Positions 20,042 to 24,285 of a stretch of 36,772 nucleotides of DNA are shown here, piece by piece. Made by a program: the position numbers and the translations under genes. This DNA comes from a virus. Position 1 is the first letter of the stretch. Each line of letters opens with the position of its first letter. The stretch spans positions 1 to 36,772 of IMG/VR virus record IMGVR_UViG_3300043409_000837; one strand, written 5' to 3'. The notes under the pieces are model-generated. The model did no database searches, was not told the DNA's origin, and saw only the letters and a program-made list of their open reading frames with translations.

Positions 20042-21565
20042 CTAACTACCCATCCAAGAGTTGGTTACGCTGGCGTGAGATGACGCGGTGCGTTTGGCTG
20101 GCTCCCGATACTCGCGGTGCGCGACGGGGAAGGCAAACGTCACCGCCAGCGCATCAGCGGCATCGGGTGAGGCTAGACCTCTACTACGCATTTCCTTCTT
20201 TCCTTCAAGGAAAATCGTGCCGCTACTGTTGGGCTTTTTCATGGGGCCAACCAGATCAGCCTTTAGCTGACGGTCGGTAGGAATGGATGCTGTCTTCAAC
20301 CAATCCTTCATCAAGCCCCACATCTCAGCCCGCTTGTTGCCCCACATAATGGCGTTCTTGGCCTTCCAGCCAAAGTTTACCCCACGCACCTTGTATCGCT
20401 GTTCTGTCAGCCTGTCAAGTATTCCGTATCCGAGGCCACCTTCGTCGATAACGGACAGGATCGGCTTGTACTCCTCAATGGCGTCGATCACCCGTCCGAC
20501 GATGGTCATGGTGTCCTCGCCCGAATAGCGTTTGATGGCGATGACGTCCCGCCCTTGGCGCACCACCAGCACGGTCGAGTCAGCGCCGCCGCGCGCGGGG
20601 TCTATCCCCAGCACAATCGGTGCCGTGGTGTCCTTCCACCGCTCCCTTTGCATTGCGTCCTCGACCAGCAGCGGCTTGATGAACTGATCCTCGCCCGCAT
20701 CTGGAAACTCACCATACACCTCGACCTTCGCCTGTGGCGAATCTTCGCCGTATTCCGCAATGATCTGCTCATAGACCTGTTTGTCGGTGTCCTCCACCGT
20801 CCTTGCGTCTACACTACGGGTGTTCCAAAACGCCCGTTTGGCGTGGAAGCACTCGAAAAAGTACCCTTCGTTGCGCCGGGGGTTGCTGAAGGCAAACCAG
20901 TACCTATCGGGTGTGTTCTCGGTGAAGAACCCGGCGCCGACCTCCCATATAGGATTAGGTATGCCGGAGGACTCATCAAAGATGAGCATCATGCCGTCCT
21001 GGTTGTGCACACCCGCGTAGCTGTCAGGGTTCTCGGCCGACCACAGCTTGCCCTCGGCGGCCCAGTAGCGCGTGCCTTTCTTCAGATCCCGCTCGACCAA
21101 CTCACATAGCCACGCCGCCGGCACCAGCTTGGTTGCGCTGATCTCGAACCAGTGGTTGTTGATGGTCATCGCCGACCACTTGGTCAGCTCGGCCCAGGTC
21201 ACCGAGCGTAGCTGGCTCTCCGAGTTGGCGCTGATGATGACGCTTGCGCCGATGCGGGTGGTCAGCATCCACAGCACCAGCCAACTGACCAAGGCTGACT
21301 TGCCGATCCCTCGCCCAGATGACACCGCCTCCCGCAGGGTGTCCATCTGGATCTTGCCTTTGTTGTTATCTATATGTTGCTTGATGTCGCGCAGGACTTC
21401 CCGCTGCCACTTGCGCGGGCCTTTGAACTTGTGCAGCGGGGTGTTCTTCTGGCCCCAGGGGAAGGCAAAGAGCACGAACGCCTCGGGGTCGTCGGCCAGC
21501 GCGGGCGACCACAGTTCGACCATTAACTTTGTTTCCTCGTCCGAGGAATAAATTGGTACCTGCAC
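20042..21565 (-). CDS. terL: Terminase large subunit
   Basis: A 507-residue packaging motor. ATPase: Walker A SGRGIGKS at 83-90, Walker B MLIFDE at 193-198, followed by a coupling region (FAFSNPRR at 225-231). Nuclease: RNase H-like acidic residues at Asp322 (GIDPARGGAD), Asp374 (VIDEGG) and Asp468/Asp471 (SPDAADAL). Together with the small subunit it should cut concatemers and pump DNA through the portal, most likely by headful packaging as in P22. The start is GTG at 21563-21565, overlapping the stop of an HNH gene (TAGTG). The HNH gene therefore separates terS and terL but keeps coupling to terL. Confidence 0.95.
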   Translation of the reverse strand: MQVPIYSSDEETKLMVELWSPALADDPEAFVLFAFPWGQKNTPLHKFKGPRKWQREVLRDIKQHIDNNKGKIQMDTLREAVSSGRGIGKSALVSWLVLWMLTTRIGASVIISANSESQLRSVTWAELTKWSAMTINNHWFEISATKLVPAAWLCELVERDLKKGTRYWAAEGKLWSAENPDSYAGVHNQDGMMLIFDESSGIPNPIWEVGAGFFTENTPDRYWFAFSNPRRNEGYFFECFHAKRAFWNTRSVDARTVEDTDKQVYEQIIAEYGEDSPQAKVEVYGEFPDAGEDQFIKPLLVEDAMQRERWKDTTAPIVLGIDPARGGADSTVLVVRQGRDVIAIKRYSGEDTMTIVGRVIDAIEEYKPILSVIDEGGLGYGILDRLTEQRYKVRGVNFGWKAKNAIMWGNKRAEMWGLMKDWLKTASIPTDRQLKADLVGPMKKPNSSGTIFLEGKKEMRSRGLASPDAADALAVTFAFPVAHREYREPAKRTASSHASVTNSWMGS

Positions 21566-22074
21566 TATGTGTCCAAGGGGCGGGTAGGGTGCAGTTCGCG
21601 TACGGCAGCGAGGTATACCTGGCTTGCAACCGTTGCGTCGTCAAACAAGCCTAAAAAATGGTATTTACAGTTAGCCATTATTTGGGCTTGCCATTTGCCA
21701 TTCTTACCATTCCAAGTAACACCCCTGTACCCCGACGTATTTTTGCGCGAAGGGCTGCTATTGTGAACATTCTCACTACGAGTAACCAACCGCAAATTAG
21801 CTAACCTGTTGTTGGCGGGATTTCTATCTATGTGGTCTACTTGCGCCGAAGGTAGCGCGCCGTATCCATACAACCACGCTAAATGATGCGCGTAATATTT
21901 TTTAGACGCTAACTGAATTATTAGGTATTTGTCTTTGCGCGCATACCCTGCGGGGCTATTAGGTACGGCGCGGTGGCAACGCCCGCGTTTTTGCGCGTTT
22001 GTAAACACGCCGGTTGCCGGGTCGTAATGCAAGAGTTCTTTAAGCTGCACTTGCGTTAGAATGTTGGTAGCCAT
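21565..22074 (-). CDS. HNH-AP2 homing endonuclease between terS and terL
   Basis: A 169-residue protein. An HNH nuclease spans about 60-98 (YYAHHLAWLYGYG, QVDHIDRNPANNRLANLRLVT, with Asp80-His81, Asn89 and Asn93). A full AP2 DNA-binding domain follows at about 114-162 (SGYRGVTWNGKNGKWQAQI...GLFDDATVASQVY). HNH plus AP2 is a common phage homing endonuclease. I chose the ATG at 22072-22074 over one 15 bases upstream because GAGGA is well placed before it. It overlaps the 3' end of terS and its TAG overlaps the terL GTG. Confidence 0.9.
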   Translation of the reverse strand: MATNILTQVQLKELLHYDPATGVFTNAQKRGRCHRAVPNSPAGYARKDKYLIIQLASKKYYAHHLAWLYGYGALPSAQVDHIDRNPANNRLANLRLVTRSENVHNSSPSRKNTSGYRGVTWNGKNGKWQAQIMANCKYHFLGLFDDATVASQVYLAAVRELHPTRPLDT

Positions 22075-22534
22075 GCGATGTGTCCTCATCGTTATTGGTA
22101 AGAAGCCCTCGACCGTTGATGCGTTCGGGGGCTTCGTCTATTGTAACACTGCCTTCGATCACCCTTGCGCGGGCTTGTTCCAGCGCCGTGATGACGCTGA
22201 TCTTCTGGTACACGTCCACACTGATCTCCTGCCGTGCTGTCCAGCCATGCACATGCTGGAGGATCGCCAGGCTCGCCTTGGCGTCGCCTGCTTCAGACGC
22301 CTCGTTCAGACGCTGCGCTGCGCGCAGTTCGTTGTCGGCCTTGCCCTTCTGCGCCGCCAGCTCGGCCAATGGGTCAAATTGGCACAATTGCCGGTACTCC
22401 AAAGGCAGCATCCCTGACGCCAGTGCCAGTGAATCTCCTTTCAACCCTAAAGATGCTGCTTTGTATATGGAGTCCAGACGCGCCTCTGTCGCCTGAAGTC
22501 TAGGTCGGATCGCTAACGGCAGTGAGCGGAACAT
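22040..22534 (-). CDS. terS: Terminase small subunit
   Basis: A 164-residue protein, first gene of the leftward late operon. Helical N-terminus with PRLQATEARLDSIYKAASLGLKGDSLALASGMLPLEYRQL, where LGLKGDSLALASGM resembles the helix-turn-helix of small terminases. A central helical region follows (ADNELRAAQRLNEASEAGDAKASLAILQHVHGWTAR), then a segment with EISVDVYQKISVI. It recognises pac and feeds the large subunit. The last ~15 residues overlap the HNH gene start and may have been rewritten when that gene was inserted. A predicted promoter places transcription start at the ATG itself. Confidence 0.82.
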   Translation of the reverse strand: MFRSLPLAIRPRLQATEARLDSIYKAASLGLKGDSLALASGMLPLEYRQLCQFDPLAELAAQKGKADNELRAAQRLNEASEAGDAKASLAILQHVHGWTARQEISVDVYQKISVITALEQARARVIEGSVTIDEAPERINGRGLLTNNDEDTSHGYQHSNASAA

Positions 22535-22540
22535 GGCTGC

Positions 22541-22570
22541 GTTATACCACGGACTTAAACGCGGTGTCCA
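22541..22570 (-). promoter_or_regulatory. Candidate sigma-70 promoter of the late operon
   Basis: On the minus strand TGGACA (5 of 6 to TTGACA) and TATAAC (5 of 6 to TATAAT) are separated by 18 bases. The expected start, 7 bases on, is the A of the terS ATG, implying a leaderless message; no Shine-Dalgarno sequence precedes terS. Confidence 0.45.
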
Positions 22571-22717
22571 TTTGGCCTATTTGGCCTATGTAAGCCTTTG
22601 GCTTGCAAGAGAAAGTTAAAAATAAAAATTGTTCGTGGGGGCTACCCTGACCGACACGGCCGAGCCAAGGCCCTAGCCCCCCATGCTGCGCTGCAACAAA
22701 GCTCGATGCTCGATGCC

Positions 22718-23009
22718 TGGTGGCCGGCCAGCACGGCCACCGGCCACCGGCCACCGGCCAGCACGGCCACCGGCCACCGGCCACCTCGATGTCGGCCAGG
22801 TGGCCACCGGCCACCGGCCACCTCGATGTCGGCCAGGTGGCCACCTCGATGTCGGCCAGGTGGCCAGGTGGCCAGGTGGATGTCGGCCAGGTGGCCACCT
22901 CGATGTCGGCCAGGTGGCCAGGTGGCCAGGTGGATGTCGGCCAGGTGGCCAGGTGGCCAGGTGGATGTCGGCCAGGTGGCCACCTCGATGTCGGCCAGGT
23001 GGCCAGCAC
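22718..23009. repeat. GGCC-rich two-level tandem array with eight perfect 19-mers
   Basis: Eight identical copies of GATGTCGGCCAGGTGGCCA begin at 22788, 22825, 22848, 22879, 22902, 22933, 22964 and 22987. Linkers are CCTC (period 23), GGTGGCCAGGTG (period 31) or an 18-base CCGGCCA-type linker (period 37). The left third (22718-22787) is made of GGCCACC heptamers and GGCCAGCAC, which returns at 23001. CCTC-linked units place GGCCACCT and AGGTGGCC as inverted arms, so hairpins can form. The absence of stops in several frames comes from the repeat, so this is not read as coding. It lies between terS and the early genes: pac, origin or structural role are all possible. Confidence 0.92.
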
Positions 23010-23010
23010 A

Positions 23011-23256
23011 TTGACAATATTGCCTAGGCAATAGGCAATGGTCATTTATAGGCAATCTAGGCAATATAGTTAGGCCGGAAAAGTCGCGCCGCAAACGCAG
23101 CCGTGTCGCCCGCCTGTACATCTACTTGTATAATTATCCCCAATTTTGAAGGTACTACTTATTTGACAATATTGCCCTTTTGCCATGTTTCCCCCTATGA
23201 CGCGCGCCAATATCGCGATAGCCAATCATGGGCAATTTAGCGCGATTATGGGCAAT
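23011..23256. other. Candidate origin/operator region with GGCAAT repeats and palindromes
   Basis: Eight GGCAAT hexamers in either orientation lie at 23019, 23027, 23034, 23051, 23060, 23171, 23231 and 23251. The first two form the perfect palindrome ATTGCCTAGGCAAT. TTGACAATATTGCC is present twice, 152 bases apart (23011 and 23163). TATCGCGATA is a further palindrome at 23211. TTATCCCCA (23134-23142) is one base away from a DnaA box and overlaps a perfect TATAAT (23129-23134). The patch is AT-rich beside a very GC-rich array and sits where transcription diverges. That fits a replication origin, operators for an early regulator, or both. Confidence 0.55.
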
Positions 23257-23310: not shown

Positions 23311-23362
23311 TCCATGCGCGCAAGCCCGCGCGCATGCTCATACAGTAGAGGACAGTACACTC
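23311..23362 (+). promoter_or_regulatory. Stem-loop leader, copy 1
   Basis: ATGCGCGC and GCGCGCAT (23314-23335) form a perfect 8-base-pair stem with a 6-base loop. Then come a CTCATACAGTA block and the ribosome site AGAGGACAGTACACTC before the ATG at 23363. The whole block, through the first codons ATGCAAG, is nearly repeated before the gene at 23626. Confidence 0.75.
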
Positions 23363-23570: not shown

Positions 23571-23625
23571 GTTCCATGCGCGCCATGTCGGCGCGCATGC
23601 TCATACAGTAAAGGACACTACACTC
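23571..23625 (+). promoter_or_regulatory. Stem-loop leader, copy 2
   Basis: ATGCGCGC (23576-23583), a 7-base loop and GCGCGCAT (23591-23598) repeat the stem of copy 1. The following CTCATACAGTA and AAAGGACACTACACTC are almost identical to copy 1. The conserved stem with a different loop suggests that pairing matters. Confidence 0.75.
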
Positions 23626-24285
23626 ATGCAAGTCCATCTCACAGTCAAAAGCGCGAACGCGAAAACCGGCCCTATACCGGTATCGACAACGACTAAAGAC
23701 TCATGCCCGCCAGATTGCGCGATGCGCGATGCCTGTTACGCTGCATCCGGCCCGCTCGCATTACACTGGGCGAAAGTAACGGCCGGCGAACGTGGTACAG
23801 ATTGGCCGACGTTTACCGCGTCAATTGCCGGCCTGCCTGACGGCCAATTGTGGCGCCACAATCAGGCCGGCGACTTGCCTGTCAACAATGGCACGGTTGA
23901 CCCGGTCAAACTCGGCCAGCTGGTGCATGCCAATACCGGGCGGCGCGGGTTTACCTACAGCCACCACCGTGACGCGCAGTCCATCGACTGGATACGGCAC
24001 GCCAATGCCTGGGGGTTTACGGTCAATCTGTCGGCCAATAATTTAGCGGATGCCGATACGCTGGCCGACAAGCACGCCGGCCCGGTTGTCGTCGTGCTAC
24101 CCAGCACGCAAACAGCTAACACTAAAACGCCCGCCGGGCGCCCGGTCGTTGTTTGCCCAGCTACCCAGCGCGACAATGTCAGCTGCGCGACGTGCCAACT
24201 ATGCGCCCGGCAACGGGACGTGATCGTAGGCTTCCCCGGCCACGGCACGCGCAAGCGCACCATTGATATCAGACTAGCAGCATGA
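23626..24285 (+). CDS. Gp88/DUF7227-like protein with two cysteine clusters
   Basis: A 219-residue protein. An N-terminal KTGPIPVSTTTKDSCPP leads to Cys27, Cys31 and Cys37 (DCAMRDACYAASGP). A C-terminal cluster has Cys177, Cys187, Cys190 and Cys193 (CPAT, CATCQLC). In between are strand-like segments LWRHNQAGDLPV, GFTYSHHRD, GFTVNLSANN and PVVVVLPS, spaced like barrel strands. I recognise the style of the phage Gp88/DUF7227 proteins. That group has no settled function; the Cys clusters imply zinc or an iron-sulfur cluster. It is the largest early gene and overlaps the next small gene (ATGA). Confidence 0.78.
   Translation: MQVHLTVKSANAKTGPIPVSTTTKDSCPPDCAMRDACYAASGPLALHWAKVTAGERGTDWPTFTASIAGLPDGQLWRHNQAGDLPVNNGTVDPVKLGQLVHANTGRRGFTYSHHRDAQSIDWIRHANAWGFTVNLSANNLADADTLADKHAGPVVVVLPSTQTANTKTPAGRPVVVCPATQRDNVSCATCQLCARQRDVIVGFPGHGTRKRTIDIRLAA

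Follow-up and report, generated by a model that had tools for sequence, protein, structure and literature searches.

A modular tandem repeat array with freely changing units in a fixed slot beside terS of a P22-like podovirus group

Results

A conserved slot holds unconserved repeats

A modular GC-rich tandem array lies in non-coding DNA upstream of terS, the gene for the terminase small subunit (TerS), in an IMG/VR virus record of 36,772 bases (IMGVR_UViG_3300043409_000837; the whole stretch is referred to here as the window). Comparison with related phages shows that the slot is fixed and its repetitiveness conserved, that the sequence of the units is free, that units are gained and lost whole, and that the array is coupled to a conserved block. 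The slot lies between this block, beside terS, and iterons of the early region. With moderate confidence, we read the array as a modular, hypervariable minisatellite that occupies a fixed non-coding slot in a group of P22-like freshwater podoviruses; block and repeats together would form the packaging-initiation (pac) region.

The array spans positions 22718-23009 (292 bp, 74% GC, no strand assigned) and was delimited by exact matches, Tandem Repeats Finder (TRF) and module decomposition. Exact matching located eight perfect copies of the 19-mer GATGTCGGCCAGGTGGCCA, all on the + strand, between 22788 and 23005 (starts at 22788, 22825, 22848, 22879, 22902, 22933, 22964 and 22987). Their start-to-start spacings are 37, 23, 31, 23, 31, 31 and 23 from left to right. 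Both the copies and the periods agree with an earlier note on this DNA, in which the periods had been listed from right to left. That note had also described linkers varying by modules of 8 or about 7 bases, and the linkers indeed have a length of 4 nt, to which modules of 8 (GGCCAGGT) or 7 nt (GGCCACC) are added. The whole tract decomposes into five modules, GGCCAGGT (11 copies), GGCCACC (7), GGCCACCTCGATGTC (5), GGCCAGGTGGATGTC (3) and GGCCAGCAC (2), all of which start with GGCC.

The array is far beyond chance. Its TRF score is 331 (period 85 x 2.1; also 23, 31, 54 and 60), and the sole other TRF row in the window scores 52. Outside the array, GATGTCGGCCAGGTGGCCA does not occur in the window even when two mismatches are allowed, and no other 19-mer is present more than twice. 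The head-to-tail units with variant modules are those of a variable number tandem repeat (VNTR). No exact match to GATGTCGGCCAGGTGGCCA was found in other viruses of IMG/VR, and blastn against named phages gave no match. A search with the pattern GGCCAGGTGGCCAGGTGG recovered two relatives that carry it in the same slot (L181 and L192) and seven other contigs, and a search of a genome collection returned only three metagenome bins of uncertain host. No description of the slot was found in the literature.

ACC modules (GGCCACC) are abundant in the left half of the array and the inverse AGGT modules (AGGTGGCC) in the right half, so that one strand folds into a single long hairpin (z = -9.5), in keeping with the inverted arms noted earlier. 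A hairpin or RNA structure shared by the arrays was rejected, as the mean z over arrays of relatives is -1.0, with many values near zero or positive. Rfam matches fell far below threshold.

Repetitiveness of the slot among relatives

Searches with TerL (the terminase large subunit), TerS and the early protein DUF7227, whose gene lies across the divergence point and served as an anchor, collected 182 loci with terS. All are from metagenome assemblies, and most lack the right-hand genes. Identical loci were removed, non-redundancy being by exact identity only, and 124 loci had at least 700 nt upstream of terS. Among these 124, a TRF array was present in 69% at 0-300 nt upstream of terS, 46% at 300-600 nt and 10% at 600-900 nt; nearly all other bins gave 0-6%, except 4-6 kb inside the late genes. 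Counted without TRF, repeated 8-mers exceeded all 40 dinucleotide shuffles in 112 of 123 slots, and none of the coding controls rose above 10% in this test. From these comparisons, the repetitiveness of the slot seems to be preserved and the repeat sequence not.

Contigs often end in or beside the slot (L012, L015, L018, L025, L027, G003 and G004). The slot probably splits many such genomes in viral databases, and may explain the frequent contig breaks there. A fixed genome end at the array was rejected, since the clustered contig ends fall at different bases. Three near-complete relatives have end overlaps of k-mer size, giving circular maps; relatives are either circular or have end overlaps of 117 and 127 nt.

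Turnover of repeat units

About 45 different unit families occur among the arrays, including AGGCCGGAC, AGCCGGTC, CATCGGATCCCGCGGTC, CGACCGCCGCC, GGCA, GCCACCA and TTTGGGTCA. Three relatives have a TerS 100% identical to that of the window over aa 1-128 (terS DNA 96%) and share none of its 153 array 12-mers. A relative with 98% TerS identity (L181) shares 110 of the 153, with all five modules present in a different order, and L183, L192 and L208 have two or three modules in common with the window. Ten phages with similar flanks on both sides gave 22 flank-matched pairs, of which 11 have unrelated arrays (at most 3 12-mers shared), and slot length at such flanks ranges from 107 to 284 nt.

Near-identical pairs located by BLAST differ by whole units, as VNTRs do. 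Between L009 and L185 the only differences are a single 17-bp unit and one base in 3.5 kb of flank; L029 and L234 differ by one GGCA (4 bp). L025 and L207 have the same sequence up to the array and are apparently three 17-bp units apart, L025 being a truncated contig. Together with the reordered modules of sister phages, these differences support the recent expansion and changing copy number that had been proposed for the window.

The units are shuffled, multiplied, replaced and lost as wholes, with the same terS and flanks coming to carry unrelated arrays in a slot that nearly always keeps its repeats. Replication slippage and unequal recombination are the probable generators of this turnover. 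A collapsed or chimeric repeat in the assembly is an extremely improbable source of the array. The window is a metagenome contig and the contigs of many relatives break at the slot, but independent assemblies contain the same modules (L181, L183, L192 and L208) or one same array (L090, L184 and L185), and the longest exact repeat inside the window array is 74 bp, which a short-read assembler could in principle resolve. The exact copy number in the window genome may be wrong.

The earlier note had considered a binding array for a phage protein. For TerS, at least, a binding array with a constant word is not supported: in iteron arrays the same protein goes with the same unit, and here identity over aa 1-128 goes with unrelated arrays. 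Sequence-specific binding of TerS to the array itself, as a pac site, is accordingly quite improbable, although the array adjoins terS and the pac of phage SPP1 contains repeated sites (PMC4737164); conservation sits in the adjoining block instead. Each array might rather match its own co-evolving protein other than TerS, such as an initiator, repressor or transcription factor. The perfect 19-mers would suit such a protein, as would the adjoining 9-bp iterons, which resemble binding sites and differ between subclades, and the degenerate palindromic repeats in the slot of some relatives. We consider this improbable, because array families track neither flank (L181 has the modules of the window without its right-hand iterons, and L185 its TerS without its array) and because simple runs (GGCA, GCCACCA) occupy the same slot.

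Several other identities were rejected. A CRISPR array (clustered regularly interspaced short palindromic repeats) is excluded by linkers that are themselves repeated modules rather than unique spacers, and a protein-coding repeat by module sizes of 7, 8, 9 and 15, which shift the frame. All six frames of the array are free of stops, so openness is uninformative; many arrays of relatives hold stop triplets (TAG, for example). An interpretation as clusters of palindromes or as restriction decoys was rejected on palindrome counts at chance across 45 unit families (21 against 22.3 in shuffles); arrays generally avoid palindromes as coding DNA does. Palindromes of 6 bp are strongly avoided outside the array (294 seen against 662 expected). 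The most avoided, TGGCCA, is absent there against about 20 expected, and its 11 copies are all in the array (22801-23005). An origin element, also suggested earlier, is not supported by GC skew, which has no consistent extreme; the AT-skew minimum at the slot arises because the divergent gene orientation switches at this point.

A conserved block beside terS

Alignment of 61 relatives and motif counting identified a conserved non-coding block, a candidate packaging signal, at 22615-22694 (no strand assigned). It consists of an A/T tract (AAAAATAAAAATTGTTCG), G5 and then GGCCCT..CCCCCC. Over the 61 relatives, identity to the window is about 0.7 in the block, drops to about 0.4 at the edge of the array and is 0.3 inside it. 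The GGCCC..CCCC motif was present in 108 of 133 relatives, each time no more than 110 nt from an A/T tract, and was absent from control windows.

In five of the 11 non-repetitive slots (L188, L196, L130, L019 and L070), an inserted open reading frame (ORF) adjoins terS, with the conserved block farther out; at four of these five loci the displaced block is clearly followed by repeats. Block and repeats, displaced jointly by the insertion, therefore seem to move as one element. Of the two, the block is the better pac candidate.

The same data bear on a neutral minisatellite, in which the slot would have no function, slippage would act in the only long, length-tolerant stretch, and proximity to the packaging genes would be incidental. 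The unconstrained unit sequence, the variable slot length at the same flanks and the lack of any structure or palindromes common to the arrays are what this explanation would predict. We nevertheless regard it as rather unlikely, given that 112 of 123 slots are repetitive, that the adjoining 600-900 nt bin is far less so (10%), and that the array moves with the conserved block on ORF insertion.

Discussion

A possible packaging element

A role of the array in packaging initiation is plausible on the sequence comparisons. The earlier note had offered a pac or recombination site, and such a role for the array is possible, as the array travels with the conserved block. Less certainly than the turnover itself, the block may carry the pac signal, and the repeats may be a sequence-tolerant tract beside it, open to cutting, wrapping or recombination with no exact word being read. 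The P22-like portal and TerL and the circular maps fit headful packaging, without proving it. More tentatively, the slot may be a dedicated repeat-making site beside a packaging signal, kept repetitive by selection or by a local generator (for example terminase breaks) while its sequence is replaceable; repetitiveness would then be the conserved trait.

Four observations weigh against a packaging-linked minisatellite. No other non-coding stretch near terS is as long as the slot, and arrays are perhaps simply tolerated there. The periods (4, 7, 8, 9, 11, 12, 17, 23 and more) do not share a helical phase; a wrapping model is therefore not specifically supported, and we claim no wrapping geometry. 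Degenerate palindromic repeats (GTTAGTRRGCACTAAC) in some relatives resemble binding sites rather than a product of slippage, and direct copy-number change was seen in a few pairs only.

The GTTAGTRRGCACTAAC palindromes, spaced at about 22-29 bp, fill the slot in both near and distant relatives (L010, L013, L171, L173, L186, L188, L100, L114, L137 and L149).

Comparison with known systems

Iteron arrays, such as those bound by Rep, lambda O and P4 alpha, are short direct repeats in a non-coding control region that are maintained by a cognate protein. The arrays described here share that position and form, but their word changes beside an unchanged TerS. Tandem arrays that vary in unit and copy number at a fixed control-region position are also known as mitochondrial control-region VNTRs and bacterial minisatellites; the present case differs in lying in a phage genome, where a single orthologous site of one phage group has about 45 unit families.

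Herpesvirus and tailed-phage terminases are related. In the herpesvirus a sequence, conserved A/T and C-tract pac motifs are adjoined by direct repeats, and progeny genomes differ in the number of these repeats (PMC10763189). The likeness to pac1/pac2 with DR2/DR4 is that of a conserved block next to variable repeats, the resemblance of the block to pac being judged by eye. The differences are that the herpesvirus unit is conserved within a virus species, and that the a sequence is located at genome termini and junctions; the maps of this phage group are circular.

SPP1 and SF6, headful phages of Bacillus, also have direct repeats beside terS whose sequence is not conserved (the array here lies beside the terS promoter). 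The boxA repeats of SPP1 are absent from SF6, which has a different pair, and yet one small terminase can stand in for the other; in these phages the DNA-binding domain of TerS shows little sequence specificity (PMC4737164). Here, by contrast, whole tandem arrays of about 40 to 380 bp are replaced. The SPP1/SF6 and herpesvirus precedents, the nearest analogues of the slot, make the packaging reading reasonable.

A circular relative is phage DSL-LC05 of the proposed 'Luchaoviridae' (PMC10611076), with a TerL 70% identical to that of the window, the same gene layout and short repeats at the same slot. Its repeat word differs, and the main text of that paper does not mention the repeats.

Where repeats have been described near packaging sites, they are usually fixed binding sites; in this abundant lake phage group about 45 units occupy one orthologous slot, and the neighbouring proteins are little changed or unchanged. 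The group offers a natural experiment on the birth of minisatellites and on whether terminase recognition depends on a particular sequence or just on a tract being repetitive. The slot also offers a strain-level marker for these phages.

Genome setting and neighbouring features

The window belongs to the P22-like group by its P22-type portal, TerL, DUF5906 primase-helicase and family A polymerase. In a circular relative (G003), the two ends of the window fall no more than a few hundred bases apart, which indicates that the window is nearly complete and its break arbitrary. As the earlier note had it, the array lies beside terS at the divergence point, 190 nt upstream of the gene. terS (22040-22534, - strand, 164 aa) was assigned by homology and synteny with the terS of relatives; its product had no PHROG or Pfam match. 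An HNH endonuclease gene (21565-22089, - strand; PHROG_99, E 2.6e-64; Pfam HNH_3) overlaps its 3' end, and in most relatives without the HNH gene the terS match stops near residue 130. Next to these lies terL (20042-21565, - strand, 507 aa; PHROG_2, E 1.8e-44; Pfam Terminase_6N). The DUF7227 gene is at 23626-24285 on the + strand (Pfam PF23872, E 9.7e-84).

A likely late promoter of terS lies just before the ATG, at 22541-22570 (- strand), with columns conserved in 61 relatives. It comprises a -35 TGGACA (22570-22565), an 18-nt spacer and a -10 TATAAC (22546-22541), 6 nt before the ATG; a consensus promoter scan did not call it. If real, its position places the array outside the terS transcript. 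Just upstream of the -35 are two 9-bp direct repeats of TTTGGCCTA (22571-22588, no strand assigned), found in the sequence and by TRF in relatives, which are likely an operator.

A repeat search found a second set of short iterons, unrelated to the array, between it and the early genes (23011-23256, no strand assigned). TTGACAATATTGCC occurs twice, and TAGGCAAT and ATGGGCAAT words occur in both orientations; small early ORFs also lie to the right. Throughout the group, iterons with a related, shifting word in both orientations flank the slot (TTTGGCCTA, TAGGCAAT, TTTGGGTCA, TGTGGACAA and ATGTTTACGTAAAC), located at the two window sites 22571-22588 and 23011-23256 and in L096, L098, L107, L170 and L278. 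The corresponding word in Rhodoferax phage P26218 is TTGTAGCAG. These flanking iterons are possibly origin or operator words that change between subclades.

A hairpin with GCGCGCATGCTCATACAGTA precedes successive small early ORFs in the window (23311-23347 and 23574-23610) and in L089, L091 and L013. It is exact at both window sites, where none is expected, and resembles a reusable leader cassette.
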